Shown here: in pieces, positions 4,079 through 11,867 of the stretch
How the letters are laid out: each line of letters opens with the position of its first letter
Position numbering within the stretch: position 1 is the stretch's first letter
Source: Acidobacteriota bacterium
Lineage (GTDB): Bacteria; Acidobacteriota; Terriglobia; Versatilivoradales; Versatilivoraceae
DNA length: 53,361 bases
Direction of reading: 5' to 3'
Assembly: GCA_022821775.1 (NCBI GenBank)
Contig: JAJECY010000245.1
Coordinates: 1 to 53,361 of the forward strand
Notes under the pieces: model-generated
The model's input: the letters and a program-made list of their open reading frames with translations, nothing else
Told to the model about the DNA's origin: nothing
Databases searched by the model: none
Program-made: the position numbers and the translations under genes

Positions 4079-5872
4079 TCAACGCCCGGCCGGTTCCCGA
4101 ACCTGAGGCAGGCTCAAGGGGCTGGCCAGCAGCGGCGGGCGGGGAATGTCTCCGGGAGGCCGTCTCAGCGCCAGGTCTTCGAACAGGAACGAGGGCACCA
4201 CCAGCGAGATGATCGGAGGCGGCCCCATGAAACCAATGGAAGAAAAGGGATTCATCATCGGGAGACGCATGGTCGTATGGTGGGGAGTCAGAACCTCGGA
4301 GGCCGCCGCGACCTCGCGGAAGCTGGATGCGCTCAGCCCCAGGATGACCGCCTTGCGGATCAACTCCTCGCGCCCGTCGGGAAACACCTTGTAGGCCTCG
4401 GTCAAGGGCTTGAGTTTCGGTCTCTCCTCCTCGCCCGGCATGCTGAAAAAGAATCCGCGTTCCCGGGACAGCCTCATGTCGGGACTGCCGATGCGGCGCA
4501 CCACGATTCCGAAATCCAGGCCCCGCTCCTCCACCAGGTCGAGCAACTCCCGGCTGATTTCCTCCTGTTTCAACCCGTTCCGCGGAATCAGGAAGAGGTT
4601 GGAGGGATTCGGTCTGGCATTTCTTCGATTCCCCGTACTGTTGGACACGCCCGAAACCGGGGTGCGGGTAGCGAGCAGGGTCTTGAGAATACCCCTTTGG
4701 ACGACCGTTGTGCGGCGGGAGCGCACCCCCTCCTCGTCGACTTCATACCCCCCCAGCAGCGGCGCTTCGCCGTGGCTGCCGGCCGTGGGGTCGTCGATGA
4801 CGTTGAGAAACCGGGGCAAGACCCTTGCTCCCAGCTTTTCCAGGAACGGATTTTGCGGACTGGACCCGAATCGGCTGAACATGGGATTGTCGGCAACGGG
4901 GGTTCGCAAAGCCAGCAGCCTGGGCGCCAGGATCTGGCTCACCAACTCTGCCGCGGCCTGTCCTTCAAACAACACCGGACCGTTGTAACGCTCCACAAAC
5001 CCGGCTTCCCGGAGCCGGCCCAATCGTTCCGCCATGGCCCGGATCCTTGCCGCCAGTTCGGCCTGGCCGGGCAGATCTTTCCAATGACGGCCGCGTGCGA
5101 CCACGAAGTCCTCCAGGTGTGTCCCGTCGGCGGCCTGGGTGGCCGCCAGGGCCTGGATGGAGGCGGAGGAGAAATTCCTGATGTAGGAGGAGCCTTCGCT
5201 GTTGATGAAGTAGGTCCTGACGCGACTCTGGCCGGCGCTGACCCTGGAGTCGAAGACCTGCGGCATGCCCTTGAAGAGAGCGGACAGTTGCTGCACCGTC
5301 TCCTCCACCTGAGCCTCGGCCGGCAGCGGCGCCAGGTCGCCCTCGTCTCTGTGCTCGACCGGCCCTTCCCGGCTGAAGTCGGGAATTTCCTCGACCCGCG
5401 TCTTGTTCTGAAGACTGGCGCGCTTCTTGGCGAGGCTGTGGACGGCCTGCTTGTAGGCGCCGTCGGTGGCCAGCCAGATCTGCCGCCTCAACTCCTTGTA
5501 GTCGTCCCTCAGCGGGAGAGACACGGGGAACCCCTCTCGGACCACCCTGGAACGCAACCTCCCGAAATCCGTAAAATTGGTGTTGTCGAGGTCGTGGTCT
5601 CCAACCCTCAGCTCCACCGACAGGCTTCGGTTGCCGCTCCCTCGGCCGCGGCCGAGCAGTCCACCCAGAATGGCCGTGCGACTGCGGCCTTCGGATTCGC
5701 GAACCCAGTAGGCCACGTAGTAGGGCCTGTCCATCTCCTCCAGTTGCAGCCTTTCCATGGTCCGACCCATCTCGTCCCGCAGGGCCTTCATCAGCAGGTT
5801 TTCCTGGGCCTGCAGCGGGAGGCCGGCCAGCAGAACAGTCATCCCGAGGGTGCAAATGGCGCCGCGTTTCAT
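4079..5872 (-). CDS. Exported TldE/PmbA-like protein lacking the metal motif
   Basis: This 597-residue protein has a clear signal peptide when started at the ATG at 5872 (MKRGAICTLGMTVLLAGLPLQAQ). A longer upstream frame adds non-homologous sequence. The fold matches the TldD/PmbA (TldE) metallopeptidase superfamily. At the place where its upstream neighbour has HEILGH, this protein reads ELVSQILAP, so the zinc-binding histidines are missing. In the classical system the TldE subunit likewise lacks the metal site and pairs with catalytic TldD. The TldD-like gene is 31 bp upstream on the same strand, which suggests an exported heterodimer. Classical TldD/E is cytoplasmic and acts on peptides such as microcin precursors. 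The substrate here is unknown. Confidence 0.7.
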   Translation of the reverse strand: MKRGAICTLGMTVLLAGLPLQAQENLLMKALRDEMGRTMERLQLEEMDRPYYVAYWVRESEGRSRTAILGGLLGRGRGSGNRSLSVELRVGDHDLDNTNFTDFGRLRSRVVREGFPVSLPLRDDYKELRRQIWLATDGAYKQAVHSLAKKRASLQNKTRVEEIPDFSREGPVEHRDEGDLAPLPAEAQVEETVQQLSALFKGMPQVFDSRVSAGQSRVRTYFINSEGSSYIRNFSSASIQALAATQAADGTHLEDFVVARGRHWKDLPGQAELAARIRAMAERLGRLREAGFVERYNGPVLFEGQAAAELVSQILAPRLLALRTPVADNPMFSRFGSSPQNPFLEKLGARVLPRFLNVIDDPTAGSHGEAPLLGGYEVDEEGVRSRRTTVVQRGILKTLLATRTPVSGVSNSTGNRRNARPNPSNLFLIPRNGLKQEEISRELLDLVEERGLDFGIVVRRIGSPDMRLSRERGFFFSMPGEEERPKLKPLTEAYKVFPDGREELIRKAVILGLSASSFREVAAASEVLTPHHTTMRLPMMNPFSSIGFMGPPPIISLVVPSFLFEDLALRRPPGDIPRPPLLASPLSLPQVREPAGR

Positions 5873-5903
5873 GGGAATGGTCCTCCAGAGAGGTCGGACA
5901 AGG

Positions 5904-7592
5904 TTACGGTGACTCCCAGGGCGGGGAAAGGATCGGAAGTCGTTCCACGGATTTCTCTTTCTTCTGGACCTCGATCTGCGAAACCAGCACCGCGGGAGAG
6001 ACGGCTGACACAGGCACCCCCCCGGACTCGGCTCCGCAGATGCCGTTAAAGGACTCGAATTGATCATCCGCGGCCATGATCTTGCTGAAGGCGGTCAGCG
6101 GCGTGCCGATGAGGTCCACTCCTCGCACCAGCTCCTCGCGCCCGTCGGGGTAGATCCGGTACACCATGACCGGCAGGACATTGAACATGTTCGGAGTGGA
6201 TCGTCCCGTGAAGGTGAATCCCCCCTGGACGTCCTTGAAGTAGAGTCCGAAGGGCTTGTCCTCCTGCTCGAGCCTCTCGATCAACATGGCTTTGAGCTCT
6301 TCGCGCGAGTGGGATCGGGTGACCTCCACAAACAGGTTCGATTGGCGCGCCACTGCCGCCAGACCCGCCTGCTTTCGACCGTGCCCATTGGAGCGGGAGA
6401 ATCCCTCGATGGGCGTCCGGGACATGAGAAAGTTCTTCAACACGCCGTTCTCGATGACCGGCACCCGGCGTGCCTTCACTCCCTGGTTGTCGTAGCGGTA
6501 GGCCCCCACCAGGTCCATGGATTCCCTTCGCCGAACGGTGGGATCGAATATGACCGAAAAGGTCTCGGGCAGCACCTTCTGATTCACCATCTTCTTGAAC
6601 GTCTGGCCTTCCTCCTCCCGTTTCTGGCGGTGACCTTCGACGCGATGGCCCAGAATCTCATGGAAGAACACCCCGCTGGCCCGGCCGGAGAGGATGGCGG
6701 GTCCGGTAAAGGGGTCCACCAAGGGAGCCTCCCGCAAGGCCTGGAGATCGGCAATCATTTCCTGGACGGTCTGGAGGATTTGGCTGTCGTCGGGGAGCCC
6801 CTCGGGAGTGAAGGAGAAGAACGACTCGTAGCGCGGCAGCTCCATCCCGTCCTCGGCCTTGGTGTAGGCCATGATCATGAGGCGGTAGTAGGACTGGGAG
6901 GTCCGAATTTCGCTGCCTTCGCTGTTGACGTACCAGCGAGTCTCCACGTTGACCGACAGGGTGGCATTGGCCGAGTAGATGTGGCCGTAAGCGGAAAAAG
7001 GAGCCGTGTACCTGCGCAGCTTCTCCTCCCAGGGAGTGCGGTCGAATTCCGGAGAAAGCGGTTCCTCCAGCCACTTTTGCGCCGGTTCGGCCGAGAAGTC
7101 CCCGGCTTGATCCTCCTCTTCCACCTTGACCCGGACGTTGGCCTTGACCTTGGCCAACTGTTCCACGGCTGCCTTGTACTGCTGGTCGGTCCGGCGCCAG
7201 AGGATGCTTCGAAGCGCCTCCGGATCCTCCAAGGGAGTCTGCTGGTAGGCATAACGAGGGAAATTGGACAACCTGTCTCCCCGGATGGAATGGGTGTTGT
7301 CCAGCTCGGGACTGCCCACCCGGAGGTCGACGTCGACCACGGCATTGTCACCCTCCGAGCTTCCGGTGATGTTCCCGAAGGAGGCTCTCACCGAATATCT
7401 CCGGTTTCCGGTGACCTCGTAGCTGAGAAAGTAGAGCGGCGTCGGCTGTTTCGAGAGCGTCTCGACCGAGCGTTGCAGCTCTTCCTTCATGGCATCCAGC
7501 ACCGGAGTGGCGCCGCGGACCGGATGGCCGGCCAGGAGAGAAGCCGCCGCCAGAAGGGTTGGAAAGAGGACGCCTCGGTGGGGTGATTTCAT
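5904..7592 (-). CDS. Exported TldD-like zinc metallopeptidase
   Basis: Started at the ATG at 7592, the 562-residue product carries a signal peptide (residues about 1-27). The zinc motif HEILGH is at about residues 311-316. Near the C-terminus it has GICGAESGGVPVS, matching the conserved Cys-Gly region of TldD that supplies another metal ligand. The protein should therefore be a catalytically competent TldD-family peptidase, but located outside the cytoplasm. The inactive-type partner lies immediately downstream (31-bp gap), so the two are probably co-transcribed and form a TldD/TldE-type complex. An alternative start 29 codons upstream would bury the signal peptide and is unlikely. Confidence 0.75.
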   Translation of the reverse strand: MKSPHRGVLFPTLLAAASLLAGHPVRGATPVLDAMKEELQRSVETLSKQPTPLYFLSYEVTGNRRYSVRASFGNITGSSEGDNAVVDVDLRVGSPELDNTHSIRGDRLSNFPRYAYQQTPLEDPEALRSILWRRTDQQYKAAVEQLAKVKANVRVKVEEEDQAGDFSAEPAQKWLEEPLSPEFDRTPWEEKLRRYTAPFSAYGHIYSANATLSVNVETRWYVNSEGSEIRTSQSYYRLMIMAYTKAEDGMELPRYESFFSFTPEGLPDDSQILQTVQEMIADLQALREAPLVDPFTGPAILSGRASGVFFHEILGHRVEGHRQKREEEGQTFKKMVNQKVLPETFSVIFDPTVRRRESMDLVGAYRYDNQGVKARRVPVIENGVLKNFLMSRTPIEGFSRSNGHGRKQAGLAAVARQSNLFVEVTRSHSREELKAMLIERLEQEDKPFGLYFKDVQGGFTFTGRSTPNMFNVLPVMVYRIYPDGREELVRGVDLIGTPLTAFSKIMAADDQFESFNGICGAESGGVPVSAVSPAVLVSQIEVQKKEKSVERLPILSPPWESP

Positions 7593-7801
7593 TCCGCACC
7601 TCTCGTCACGAACCAGACAGAACGACCAGCAATGACCGGGAAGGTTGTTCAAACCATTGTAGCCGCAAAAACCGGCCACCGATCATTATTTTCCGCGGGA
7701 CATTCTCGAAATCCGGCCAGCCGGGACCTGCCCCATTTGGCGGACCGACCACGGTCCGAACCCATTCACCGGCCGATGGAGCGATTGGGAGCGAGGCGCC
7801 T

Positions 7802-10156
7802 TCAGCGCGGCTGTTTCCAGTTGAGGTGCTTGCGCAGAAAGCGGAAGGTCCCTTCCCCGTGGATCTCGTGTTCGCCCTCGAACCATTCGATCTCGGTGCG
7901 GCTGCCCAGGCCCAGTTCCCGGTAGAGACGCCTGACCTTGGCGTATTCGTGGGCCACCCACTCGTCCAGTCCCACGGCGTCCCGATGGCCGCGCTCCACC
8001 ATGAAGGGACGGGGGAAGATCAGGTAGGCCATCTCAGCGTAGTTGAACCTGCTGCCCAGGTCGAACTCCGGCATTTCGTACTCTCCGGTGAACATGTAGC
8101 TGTTGGGCCACTCCACGGTCACGTTCTTCCAGACCCACTGGTTGAAATCTCCGGAACAGATGGAGAGGGCGTAGTCCTCCAGAACCGCCGGAACTCGCAT
8201 GGCAGTCTTGCCGCCGTAGCTGAGGCCATAGAAGCCGATCCGCTCGCCGTCCACCCAGGGCAGGGTCTTCAGCCAGTCCAGGATGCGGCGGTGCTGGCCG
8301 ACGATGAAGGAAAACAGGGAGAGCTTGAGCGGGTTGGCCTTGCGCTGCAGCACGCGGAAACGGTCTCCTCCCCGATAGGGATTGTGGGGAGCGAAGACGA
8401 TGAAACCCTCATCGGCCAGGCGGGACGCAAAGGCCCGGTAGTAGCGAAAGTCAGGCAAGTCGGTCCGGACGACATGCTCGGGAAGCCCCTCCAGGCCGTG
8501 CTGAGCCACCACCACCGGACGGCGTTCCCCGGGCCGGAGATCCTTGGGGACCAGGAGAAGGCCCCAGGCAAAGACATCGGGCCAGACGTCCAGCACCACC
8601 TCGTACCCCGTCCACTTCCCCGTCTCCCGCCAACGGCGTGAACGCGGGTTGGCTGCCTCCATGGGTTCGTCGATCCGGCCCAGGACCTCCGTCCAGAAGG
8701 TAGAGCGCCAGCGGGCCGCCTGGCGGGTGAAGGCCTCCACCGAACCGTGGCCCTCCCGCTTCCGATAGCGTTGATCCCGGAGGCGGTCCGAGACTCGCAG
8801 CAGGTCCTGCAGCGTCCCCTGGATGCCGCGGACCAGGCGCCGCTGCTGCTCGATCCCATCGGGTCCCCTCCCCCTGTGCTTCGGCGCCGCGCCCGGAACC
8901 GCCGCAACCGCCGCGTTCCCCGCCAGGGGCTGCAACAACCCCTGCAGCGCCGCCTCCGACCCGGCGGGGACCGTTCCAGCCCGCGGGTCCGGGGGAACCA
9001 GCCTGACTCGGTCCCCGGCGCCGGCGGGAAGCGCCGCCGCCCACTGCTCGAGCCGGTTGAACTCGGAGATCACCGCTTCGGCTGGAGGAGTCTCGATCCT
9101 GCCGGGCGCCGCCACCGACCCGCGGCCCTCCGCGGGGGGAGGCGGACCCTCCACCCGAGGGGACCGCGAGTGCTCCGCCACCAGGGTGCGCGGCAGCACC
9201 AGGCTCCCGATCTCGGCGTCCCCGAACTCGGTCAGCAATGCCCAGACATTGCGGTAGATCGGTTCCCGCCAGATCCGCTCCCGCGCGGAGAAATAGCCGC
9301 TCACCAGGCAGGAATCGATTCTGGCATCCGCGGCAGCGGCGTAGAGAGCGATCAGGCCTCCCTCGCCGTGGCCGGCCACGCCAATCCCGCCCCCCTGCGA
9401 GGGTCTCGACTCCAGCCAGTCCACCAGGGCCAGGACCTTCTGAACTTCGTACCCGATGGGGTGGCGCCCCATCGGGTAAGCCATGCGGTAGAGCCACTCC
9501 CGGTGAGGCATGTTGGTCATGGCGCGCCCGGCGGGCTGGAGAGCCGGGTTGCCCGAGAACCGGCTGCCGCGGTCGACCAGGGCCGGCACGATCACCTGGC
9601 AGCCGGATTCCGCCAGGCGGAGAGCGAATTGGTCCTCGGGGCGAACTCCCGGCTGCACGCCCACCAACTGTTGCGGAGTTATGTCGGCATCCGGCAGGGC
9701 AATCATCTGGCAAACGGGGGCTCGGTTCCGGGGCCGCACCAGCAGACCCTCGGCTGACAGGCCCGGCACCACGTCCCAACGAACGCGCCAGACCGTCACC
9801 GAATGGCTTTGGGCCAGGGGCTGCCCTCCCTCGGCCGAGAGGAACTCCAGCCGGGCCGGGGACCTGCGGTCGACCACTCCGATGATCTTGCGGAAGCGCT
9901 CCCGGTTGACCTCGACCGACCGGGCGTAGCCGGCCTCGGAAGAGAAGTCTCTGTTCCAGGATGCCGCTCGCACTTCAGGAGACGCCTCCAGTCGACGCAT
10001 CAGGAAACGGTCGATGCCGTCCACCATGCGGGCCGACAGGTCGCCCTCCCAGGTCAGCTCGGCGGTTCCCGGAAGAGGCCCGGATTGCCGAGACGGCGCT
10101 GCCGAACCTATCTGAACCAGCAAAACCAGTCCGAATAGTAAAATTCTTGTTCTCAT
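7802..10156 (-). CDS. Exported two-domain alpha/beta-hydrolase (dienelactone hydrolase / acetyl-xylan-esterase type)
   Basis: The 784-residue protein starts at the ATG at 10156, with AAGG just upstream and a signal peptide (RILLFGLVLLVQIGSA). It contains two alpha/beta-hydrolase domains. The C-terminal one has an intact nucleophile elbow, GLSYGG, and a plausible catalytic histidine in EGEHEIHGEG. The N-terminal one reads GHGEGG, where the nucleophile serine of G-x-S-x-G is a glycine, so this copy is probably inactive. The family includes acetyl esterases and dienelactone hydrolases. Among secreted carbohydrate enzymes a deacylating role is reasonable but unproven. It is divergently transcribed from the sialidase gene, with about 97 bp between the starts. 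Confidence 0.65.
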   Translation of the reverse strand: MRTRILLFGLVLLVQIGSAAPSRQSGPLPGTAELTWEGDLSARMVDGIDRFLMRRLEASPEVRAASWNRDFSSEAGYARSVEVNRERFRKIIGVVDRRSPARLEFLSAEGGQPLAQSHSVTVWRVRWDVVPGLSAEGLLVRPRNRAPVCQMIALPDADITPQQLVGVQPGVRPEDQFALRLAESGCQVIVPALVDRGSRFSGNPALQPAGRAMTNMPHREWLYRMAYPMGRHPIGYEVQKVLALVDWLESRPSQGGGIGVAGHGEGGLIALYAAAADARIDSCLVSGYFSARERIWREPIYRNVWALLTEFGDAEIGSLVLPRTLVAEHSRSPRVEGPPPPAEGRGSVAAPGRIETPPAEAVISEFNRLEQWAAALPAGAGDRVRLVPPDPRAGTVPAGSEAALQGLLQPLAGNAAVAAVPGAAPKHRGRGPDGIEQQRRLVRGIQGTLQDLLRVSDRLRDQRYRKREGHGSVEAFTRQAARWRSTFWTEVLGRIDEPMEAANPRSRRWRETGKWTGYEVVLDVWPDVFAWGLLLVPKDLRPGERRPVVVAQHGLEGLPEHVVRTDLPDFRYYRAFASRLADEGFIVFAPHNPYRGGDRFRVLQRKANPLKLSLFSFIVGQHRRILDWLKTLPWVDGERIGFYGLSYGGKTAMRVPAVLEDYALSICSGDFNQWVWKNVTVEWPNSYMFTGEYEMPEFDLGSRFNYAEMAYLIFPRPFMVERGHRDAVGLDEWVAHEYAKVRRLYRELGLGSRTEIEWFEGEHEIHGEGTFRFLRKHLNWKQPR

Positions 10157-10253
10157 GGGCCTTACCATTGTGTCCCGAAACGCAAACGCCTGCAATGGGA
10201 GTAGAATTCGTCCAAGAGTTACCCAATCTTGAATGGGGTTAAGGAGGGGAAGC

Positions 10254-11867
10254 ATGATTAATGGACGACGAACCGTAGAACCGGCCAATCCGGTCCGGAT
10301 GAAACTTGCGGCCTTACTGGCCCTGCTGCTGGCCGCCGCCGGGTGTGGAGGTGCCACGCCTGCCGGACTTGAGGTCACCGCCTCCCAGCGCGTGCATCCG
10401 GTGTTGATCCGGAACGAGCACAATTCCCTGATGCGGCTGACGGTTGAAGCCAAAGACCCCGGCCTCAGCATTCGATCCTTCACTTTCAGGCTGAAGGGGA
10501 CCGACGATCCCAACGACATCGAATCGCTCGAGTTGTTCTATTCGGGCGACGGGGAGGATCTTCAGACCGGGAACCCCTTCGGCGACCCCGCCGGCCCCGC
10601 TCCCGAACTGGTCTTCCGCGGAGACCGGGAACTCCCTCCGGGGAAACATCTTTTCTGGCTCTCGGTTCGGCTGCAGCCCGACGCCGACCTGGGACACCGG
10701 GTGGATGCGGACTGCACCGCGGTCGAAACCTCGGCGGGGACCGCCAAGCCCGGGGACGCGACTCCCGGGGTCAGCAAACGCATCGGGGTGGCTATGCGCA
10801 AGCACATGGAAGAGGGGGTGCACACCTACCGCATCCCCGCGCTGGCCACCACTCCCAAGGGCACGCTGCTGTGCGTCTACGACCTGCGCAGACGAAAGTC
10901 GCGCGACCTGCAGGAGGACATCGATGTCGGGCTGAGCCGCAGCACCGACGGCGGCCGGACCTGGGGAACCCAGCGGGTGATCATGGACATGGGCGAATGG
11001 GGCGGCCGGCCCCAGGAGGAAAACGGCATCGGCGACCCGGGCATCCTGGTCGATCCCAAGACCGGAGAGATCTTCGTCTGGGCCGTGTGGATGTGGGGCA
11101 AGCCCGGCAAGCACCAGTGGGTGGAGGACGGCTCCGAGCCGGGATACGACATCGCCAAGAGCGCTCAGGTCATGAGGGTCCGCTCCCGCGACGACGGCCT
11201 TTCCTGGACCGAGCCCCGCAACCTCACCCGCAAGTTGAAACAGCGGGAATGGTGGCTTTTCGCCCCGGCTCCCAATCAGGGGATCGCTCTTTCCGACGGC
11301 ACCCTGGTCATGCCCACCCAAGGGCGGGACCGGACGGGGCACCCGTTCGCCAACATCACCTACAGCCGCGACCACGGCGCCACCTGGACGGTGAGCAACC
11401 ACGCCTTCAGCGGCGGCAACGAAAGCCAGGCGGTCCAGCTCGGCGACGGGTCCATCATGCTGAACATGCGCAACGACAAGAAAGACCCCTACCGGGCCGT
11501 CTACGTGACCCGGGACCTGGGGAAGACCTGGGAGCCGCACCCCACCGACCGCAAGGCCCTGGTGGAACCCAACTGCAACGGAAGCCTGTACCGGTTCGAC
11601 TACCGGGAAGGGGGAGAGTCGAAGATACTCCTGCTTTTTGCCAATCCCAACTCGAAAGAAGGGCGGCATCACCACACCCTGAAGCTCAGCTTCGACCAGG
11701 GCATGACCTGGCCGGAGGAGTACCAGGTCCTGCTGGACGAAGGCCGGGGGCGGGGCTACCCCAGCATCAGCCGGGTGGACGACCGGCACATCGGAATCGT
11801 GTACGAGGGAAGCCAGGCAGACCTGACTTTCGAGAAGCTGTCGCTGGAGGAGTTGCTGAAGCGATGA
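10254..11867 (+). CDS. Sialidase-like (GH33 type) lipoprotein
   Basis: The start at 10254 is set by a strong ribosome-binding site (AAGGAGGGG, 10241-10249). The 537-residue product has a lipoprotein signal (LLALLLAAAGCGG). A beta-sandwich region of roughly 150 residues follows, then a six-bladed sialidase propeller. The propeller carries the family's RIP motif (TYRIPAL) and several Asp boxes (STDGGRTW, RDDGLSW, RDHGATW, RDLGKTW, FDQGMTW). GH33 enzymes cleave terminal sialic acids, but many sialidase-fold proteins act on other sugars or only bind them. I therefore assign the fold confidently and the activity less so. It converges on the FAH-family gene. Confidence 0.75.
   Translation: MINGRRTVEPANPVRMKLAALLALLLAAAGCGGATPAGLEVTASQRVHPVLIRNEHNSLMRLTVEAKDPGLSIRSFTFRLKGTDDPNDIESLELFYSGDGEDLQTGNPFGDPAGPAPELVFRGDRELPPGKHLFWLSVRLQPDADLGHRVDADCTAVETSAGTAKPGDATPGVSKRIGVAMRKHMEEGVHTYRIPALATTPKGTLLCVYDLRRRKSRDLQEDIDVGLSRSTDGGRTWGTQRVIMDMGEWGGRPQEENGIGDPGILVDPKTGEIFVWAVWMWGKPGKHQWVEDGSEPGYDIAKSAQVMRVRSRDDGLSWTEPRNLTRKLKQREWWLFAPAPNQGIALSDGTLVMPTQGRDRTGHPFANITYSRDHGATWTVSNHAFSGGNESQAVQLGDGSIMLNMRNDKKDPYRAVYVTRDLGKTWEPHPTDRKALVEPNCNGSLYRFDYREGGESKILLLFANPNSKEGRHHHTLKLSFDQGMTWPEEYQVLLDEGRGRGYPSISRVDDRHIGIVYEGSQADLTFEKLSLEELLKR

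Follow-up and report, generated by a model that had tools for sequence, protein, structure and literature searches.

TldD/TldE has been described as a promiscuous protease that is kept safe by an active site hidden in a hollow shell. According to the 2017 work of Ghilarov and colleagues (PMC5810440), the Escherichia coli enzyme is a hollow heterodimer in which unfolded N termini are fed through a pore, the metal ligands of TldD being the HExxxH histidines and Cys454; PmbA/TldE proteins are homodimers in the cases described there. The present analysis concerns a gene pair of this kind in a 53,361-nucleotide (nt) stretch of DNA from an Acidobacteriota bacterium (contig JAJECY010000245.1, positions 1–53,361; hereafter the window), consisting of a catalytic gene, P0001, and a non-catalytic partner gene, P0002. 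On the strength of sequence comparison, structure prediction and analogy, the pair is probably an exported zinc metallopeptidase built as a TldD/E-type heterodimer, a periplasmic 'pencil-sharpener' for unfolded peptides that stems from a duplication of its own.

Relative to E. coli TldD/TldE (PmbA; MEROPS M103, PDB 5NJ5–5NJF), the window pair has in common the catalytic fold (Z 39.6), the HExxxH motif with a late Cys, an inactive partner and, by homology, the hollow dimer. It differs in carrying signal peptides on both subunits, in giving no match to PF01523, in a longer N-terminal domain (from the alignment), in having CGA in place of CGK and in a partner that is the sister of its own catalytic subunit and not of TldE. 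A further difference is a conserved Pro-rich C-terminal tail of the RPPILPxP type in both subunits (window ~5907–5960 and ~4082–4140), which is absent from E. coli TldD/TldE. We found no description of an exported TldD/E pair in the literature searched; as the search reached few subscription journals, absence from print is not claimed. The features of the locus are as follows.

5904–7592, minus strand: gene P0001 for the catalytic subunit, a TldD-like zinc metallopeptidase with a signal peptide (562 amino acids, aa)
4079–5872, minus strand: gene P0002 for the non-catalytic partner with a signal peptide (597 aa)
5873–5903, no strand: intergenic gap of 31 nt, with GGAGG (5882–5886, minus strand) ahead of the P0002 start (from the sequence)
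7512–7592, minus strand: putative Sec-type signal peptide of P0001, residues 1–27, probable cleavage site (from the sequence, the family-wide test and a predicted local distance difference test score, pLDDT, below 50)
5807–5872, minus strand: putative Sec-type signal peptide of P0002, residues 1–22, probable cleavage site (from the sequence and the family-wide test)
6645–6662, minus strand: HEILGH zinc-binding and catalytic motif of P0001, residues 311–316 (invariant in the aligned catalytic proteins)
6033–6038, minus strand: C519-G520 of P0001, equivalent of the third metal ligand Cys454 in E. coli TldD (from invariance and alignment)

The P0001 frame runs from an ATG at 7592 to a stop at 5904–5906 and the P0002 frame from an ATG at 5872 to a stop at 4079–4081, both on the minus strand. 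The preliminary description had placed the pair correctly, and its reading of the motifs holds: P0001 contains HEILGHRVEGH (H311, E312, H316) and C519-G520, while P0002 has none of these residues. The two proteins align with 27 % identity across 589 columns.

Each protein begins with K/R residues followed by a hydrophobic stretch (MKSPHRGVLFPTLLAAASLLAGHPVRG in P0001, MKRGAICTLGMTVLLAGLPLQA in P0002), and Shine–Dalgarno-like sites lie 6 nt before the P0001 ATG (GAGAGG) and 9 nt before that of P0002 (GGAGG). Signals were called across the family with a custom hydrophobicity rule and alignment-based domain starts, not with SignalP; the rule requires a start codon no more than 65 residues from the domain and a 9-mer lacking D, E, K and R with a mean hydropathy of at least 1.6. 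It was passed by 191 of the 194 genes related to the window pair, K/R preceding the hydrophobic stretch in 187, and the three that did not qualify were L054 (the frame opens too late), L091 (no fitting start codon) and L110 (domain start unaligned). Of the 31 classical controls, 26 failed this rule (TldE, 0/14 passing; TldD, 5/17 passing), and all five that passed carry twin-arginine (Tat) signals. Judged by these sequences, export signals are a family trait of window-type proteins, which bears out the earlier proposal that both proteins start with signal peptides.

Membership of the TldD/PmbA superfamily is evident for both subunits. P0001 matches PF19289 (C-terminal TldD/PmbA domain; E value 4.9e-24, 85.2 bits against a cut-off of 22) and PF19290 (central domain; 1.7e-4), and P0002 matches PF19289 (E value 8e-14, 51.8 bits, cut-off 22); neither matches the N-terminal domain PF01523. 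Both miss the NCBIfam TldD/PmbA equivalog cut-offs (P0001: best 83.8 versus 635 bits, and 39.3 versus 513; P0002: 25.5 versus 635 bits, and 17.5 versus 438). A sequence search of the PDB matched P0001 to E. coli TldD (E value 3.5e-11) and returned no chain for P0002 at E values up to 1. The AlphaFold2 model of P0001, built from 62 aligned sequences, has a mean pLDDT of 91.3 and a predicted template modelling score (pTM) of 0.89, with residues 1–26 below 50. Its top hits among solved structures were TldD chains (5nj5_C: Z 39.6, root-mean-square deviation 2.9, 438 residues aligned; TM normalised by target 0.78–0.79), followed by PmbA/TldE chains at Z 27–29 and then a fall to Z 6. The TldD fold is thus predicted for P0001 as a whole; the partner side was modelled as a P0002 homologue within the fusion described below. 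The solved PmbA/TldE proteins (3TV9, 1VL4, 1VPB, 6J6A, 3QTD) have the same overall fold as P0001, from which they differ in being of the TldE/PmbA type. None of them is known to carry an export signal.

The active-site residues follow the same division between subunits. H311, E312 and H316 are invariant in 62/62 aligned catalytic proteins, as is C519-G520. In the tree alignment, both His, the Glu and the late Cys are invariant in all 36 exported catalytic and all 17 TldD rows, whereas none of the 35 partner rows has His in either His column or Cys in the Cys column.

Phylogenetic analysis was used to place the inactive subunit. Rows were classed as exported catalytic (C), exported partner (n), TldD (D) or TldE (E) in a master alignment of 102 rows, from which L056, L057, L036 and L038 had been excluded beforehand and to which 15 loci from L076–L155 contributed. 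For the main tree, which omits the motif columns, 16 C entries were dropped together with their partners to limit its size, and 70 rows remained. It splits {C,n} from {D,E} at 100/100, and further branches separate C (95/46) and n (97/89) from all other rows. A tree of the C-terminal core (65 rows; the long rows L071_D, L066_D, L053_C, L053_n and L054_C dropped) again unites C and n at 100/100; in neither tree do the TldD rows make up one side of a branch. The topology that joins C to D and n to E, as expected from one duplication for both pairs, was rejected on the main tree (log-likelihood 124.9 lower, approximately unbiased test p 2e-44) and on the C-terminal core (50.3 lower, p 0.0038). 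The topology pairing C with E and n with D was also rejected (125.2 log-likelihood units lower, p 4e-8). R322 is conserved in 36/36 C and 28/35 n rows, compared with 0/17 D and 2/14 E rows, and together with the Pro-rich tail found in both subunits it also ties C to n. Given the {C,n} clade and the rejection of the one-duplication tree, the inactive subunit most likely had a second origin in the exported lineage, through a duplication separate from the one that gave TldD and TldE. Distances among C proteins parallel those among their n partners (Mantel correlation r 0.888, permutation p 1e-4, 18 pairs), the corresponding value for TldD and TldE being r 0.876 (13 pairs).

The preliminary description had asked whether exported pairs form a clade, which they do, apart from TldD and TldE. 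Its idea of an exported heterodimer is supported by the signals, the pairing, the fusions and the tree; its view of the pair as a version of the TldD/TldE heterodimer has to be corrected, since the two proteins are sisters of each other and not exported copies of TldD and TldE. The different substrate that it suggested would follow solely from the change of compartment. The window pair is best described as a separately evolved exported sister pair.

The two genes travel together. Of 297 genomes sampled from the phylum, at least 45 carry the exported catalytic gene (one of them partial, at a contig end), and the partner adjoins it in 44 of these 45. Four genomes of a genus shared with seven positives (G126, G135, G168 and G270) gave weak matches to a TldD query, outside the matches listed for this sample. 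The named loci from a scan of GTDB genomes are the 80 best among 569 confirmed ones. Among these 80, the partner lies downstream in 68, a single open frame covers both in seven, a contig edge intervenes in two and no partner was found within ~5 kb in three; it is therefore adjacent or fused in 75 of the 78 assessable loci. Record titles assign the carriers to Acidobacteria, Gemmatimonadetes, Gammaproteobacteria, Bacteroidetes/Ignavibacteria/Kapabacteria, Planctomycetes, KSB1 and Aminicenantes, although single assignments may be wrong because the carriers are metagenome bins. The fusions come, again by title, from Gammaproteobacteria, Bacteroidetes, Acidobacteria, Gemmatimonadetes and one unassigned bacterium. 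None of the seven has a hydrophobic segment or second signal at the junction; the five with a complete front have an N-terminal signal, and the other two (L100 and L141) begin at a contig edge. The predicted structure of the 1134-aa fusion L101 scored pLDDT 86.0 and pTM 0.86, its catalytic half being built on seven alignment rows only, and its first half matches TldD at Z 29 (in a search showing the best alignment per entry). Judged from pTM alone, the two halves are predicted to adopt a well-defined arrangement as one compact particle.

Taken together with what is described for E. coli TldD/E, these data suggest a mode of action. The Sec system would carry each subunit across the inner membrane, guided by that subunit's own signal peptide, and the predicted fold, the gene pairing and the natural fusions are consistent with assembly of the two in the periplasm as a closed shell with a hollow interior. 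The catalytic half would, by homology to TldD, hold a metal through H311, H316 and C519, with E312 as general base, and the inactive half, its catalytic residues lost, would complete the chamber. Unfolded peptide N termini may then be threaded through the pore and cut in short steps, as proposed for E. coli TldD/E, with a likely role in clearing or trimming unstructured periplasmic peptides. Both subunits would derive from their own duplication, separate from that giving TldD and TldE.

Several observations weigh against an exported, separately duplicated peptidase pair. The position of TldD Lys456, which forms salt bridges to Glu270 and Asp272 (PMC5810440), is Ala in 36/36 exported catalytic rows, so the surround of the active site differs from that of TldD. 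A long stem (1.48) leads to the exported clade, leaving some room for a long-branch attraction artefact. Genome G051 has catalytic and partner genes unlinked, on different contigs, and L134 and L144 each have an intact catalytic gene without an adjacent partner; the third partnerless locus, L124, is cut short. Finally, L054:6268–7917 (plus strand; genome G033), a more distant, early-branching catalytic homologue, is a singleton without a signal peptide or adjacent partner. It is perhaps close to the ancestral state.

The substitution of Lys456 also bears on a different reading of the chemistry, in which the pair is exported and forms a shell but cleaves a different amide, such as an N-acyl group or a peptide of the cell wall. 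The title of a review from 2022 couples TldD/TldE peptidases with N-deacetylases. Such an activity seems unlikely nonetheless, as the whole TldD fold is predicted and HExxxH, the Cys and R416, which aligns with an Arg invariant in TldD, are kept in 36/36 C and 17/17 D rows. The long stem, together with composition deviations in several tree rows, would suit a single ancient duplication, with the partner being an exported TldE whose fast evolution mimics kinship with its catalytic mate. We regard this as improbable: the corresponding topology is rejected on the whole alignment and also on the core by itself, motif columns having been left out, P0001 and P0002 align over 589 columns whereas P0002 finds no PDB chain at E values up to 1, and R322 is shared by C and n and largely missing from TldD and TldE.

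A more specialised role, as a dedicated leader peptidase for a secreted ribosomally synthesised and post-translationally modified peptide (RiPP), is suggested by the maturation of microcin B17 by E. coli TldD/E (PMC5810440). Neighbourhood clustering of 966 gene calls (crude calls of at least 80 aa) at 105 loci argues against it. The commonest family besides the pair resembles ABC-transporter ATPases and occurs at 11/105 loci, no other family travels with the pair, and the gene context thus gives no function. Nor does a precursor-like partner recur among calls of at least 80 aa, shorter genes and RiPP clusters lying outside any search with a dedicated tool, and we consider this role very unlikely. 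That the pair is a normal TldD/TldE of the cytoplasm whose start codons were misassigned, for which the sole point is the presence of in-frame downstream Met codons (M35 in P0001; M28 and M35 in P0002), is scarcely credible, being already contradicted at sequence level by the same type of N terminus in 191/194 relatives against 26/31 classical controls without one, by the Shine–Dalgarno-like sites at the upstream ATGs and by fusions that keep a single front signal with none at the junction.

The genome containing the window (4.40 Mb, rated 100 % complete) has P0001 and P0002 as its only PF19289 matches, and neither a PF01523 match nor a classical TldD/TldE was found there. Classical genes are also present in 31 of the 45 positive genomes and absent from 14 (G033 was examined as well), indicating that the exported pair normally coexists with a cytoplasmic one and sometimes stands alone. 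Upstream of the pair, window 7802–10519 (minus strand) holds a large hydrolase-like gene whose only other occurrences beside the pair are in L076 and L077, both near relatives. Exported pairs stand in tandem arrays, two to four pairs each, at L109, L112, L113, L114 and L117 (titles Gammaproteobacteria, OMG group), the outermost sometimes cut by the locus edge. In the last of these, a catalytic-type copy adjoining an intact pair (L117:1168–3009, plus strand) retains neither the second zinc His (its motif reads HEVLGN) nor the late Cys. At L107:7411–9152, an insert with a transposase-like frame on the opposite strand (7436–8842) interrupts the partner gene, whose halves match partner-profile positions 15–266 and 272–581; an Rfam search of L107:6400–10200 gave no match. 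Of 72,556 plasmid records, 20 match P0001, all below 60 % identity and none covering 80 %, and those listed resemble classical TldD.

The five Tat-bearing controls, found among 17 classical-type TldD proteins of the same phylum and E. coli, have neighbouring TldE proteins without a signal. Twin-arginine signals, such as IPRRKFLELSFKGGLALAATPAL, were seen on classical-type TldD at L063, L064, L065, L068, L069 and L160–L178, and the adjacent TldE lacked a signal in the five pairs checked. In a search with one Tat-TldD, for which 30 loci were read, the best 19 all have a twin-arginine N terminus and the next 11 have none. This is likewise an exported-looking TldD-type pair in related bacteria; it differs from the window pair in grouping with classical TldD rows, outside the clade of the Sec family, and in having the Tat signal on TldD alone. 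Tat-TldD and signal-less TldE possibly form a Tat hitch-hiker complex, and the group offers a chance to test hitch-hiker export of a protease pair.

On balance, we lean towards the view that the hollow TldD/E protease has left the cytoplasm at least twice: as a Sec pair with its own dead subunit, parallel to TldE and marked by occurrence in several phyla, repeated fusion and tandem arrays, and as a Tat-TldD that may carry signal-less TldE as a folded hitch-hiker. The natural single-chain fusions provide a ready experimental handle, with one gene, one protein and a fixed 1 : 1 stoichiometry. If this view is true, the design of an active plus a dead subunit would have evolved twice, and a large family of periplasmic peptidases would be added in uncultured bacteria.

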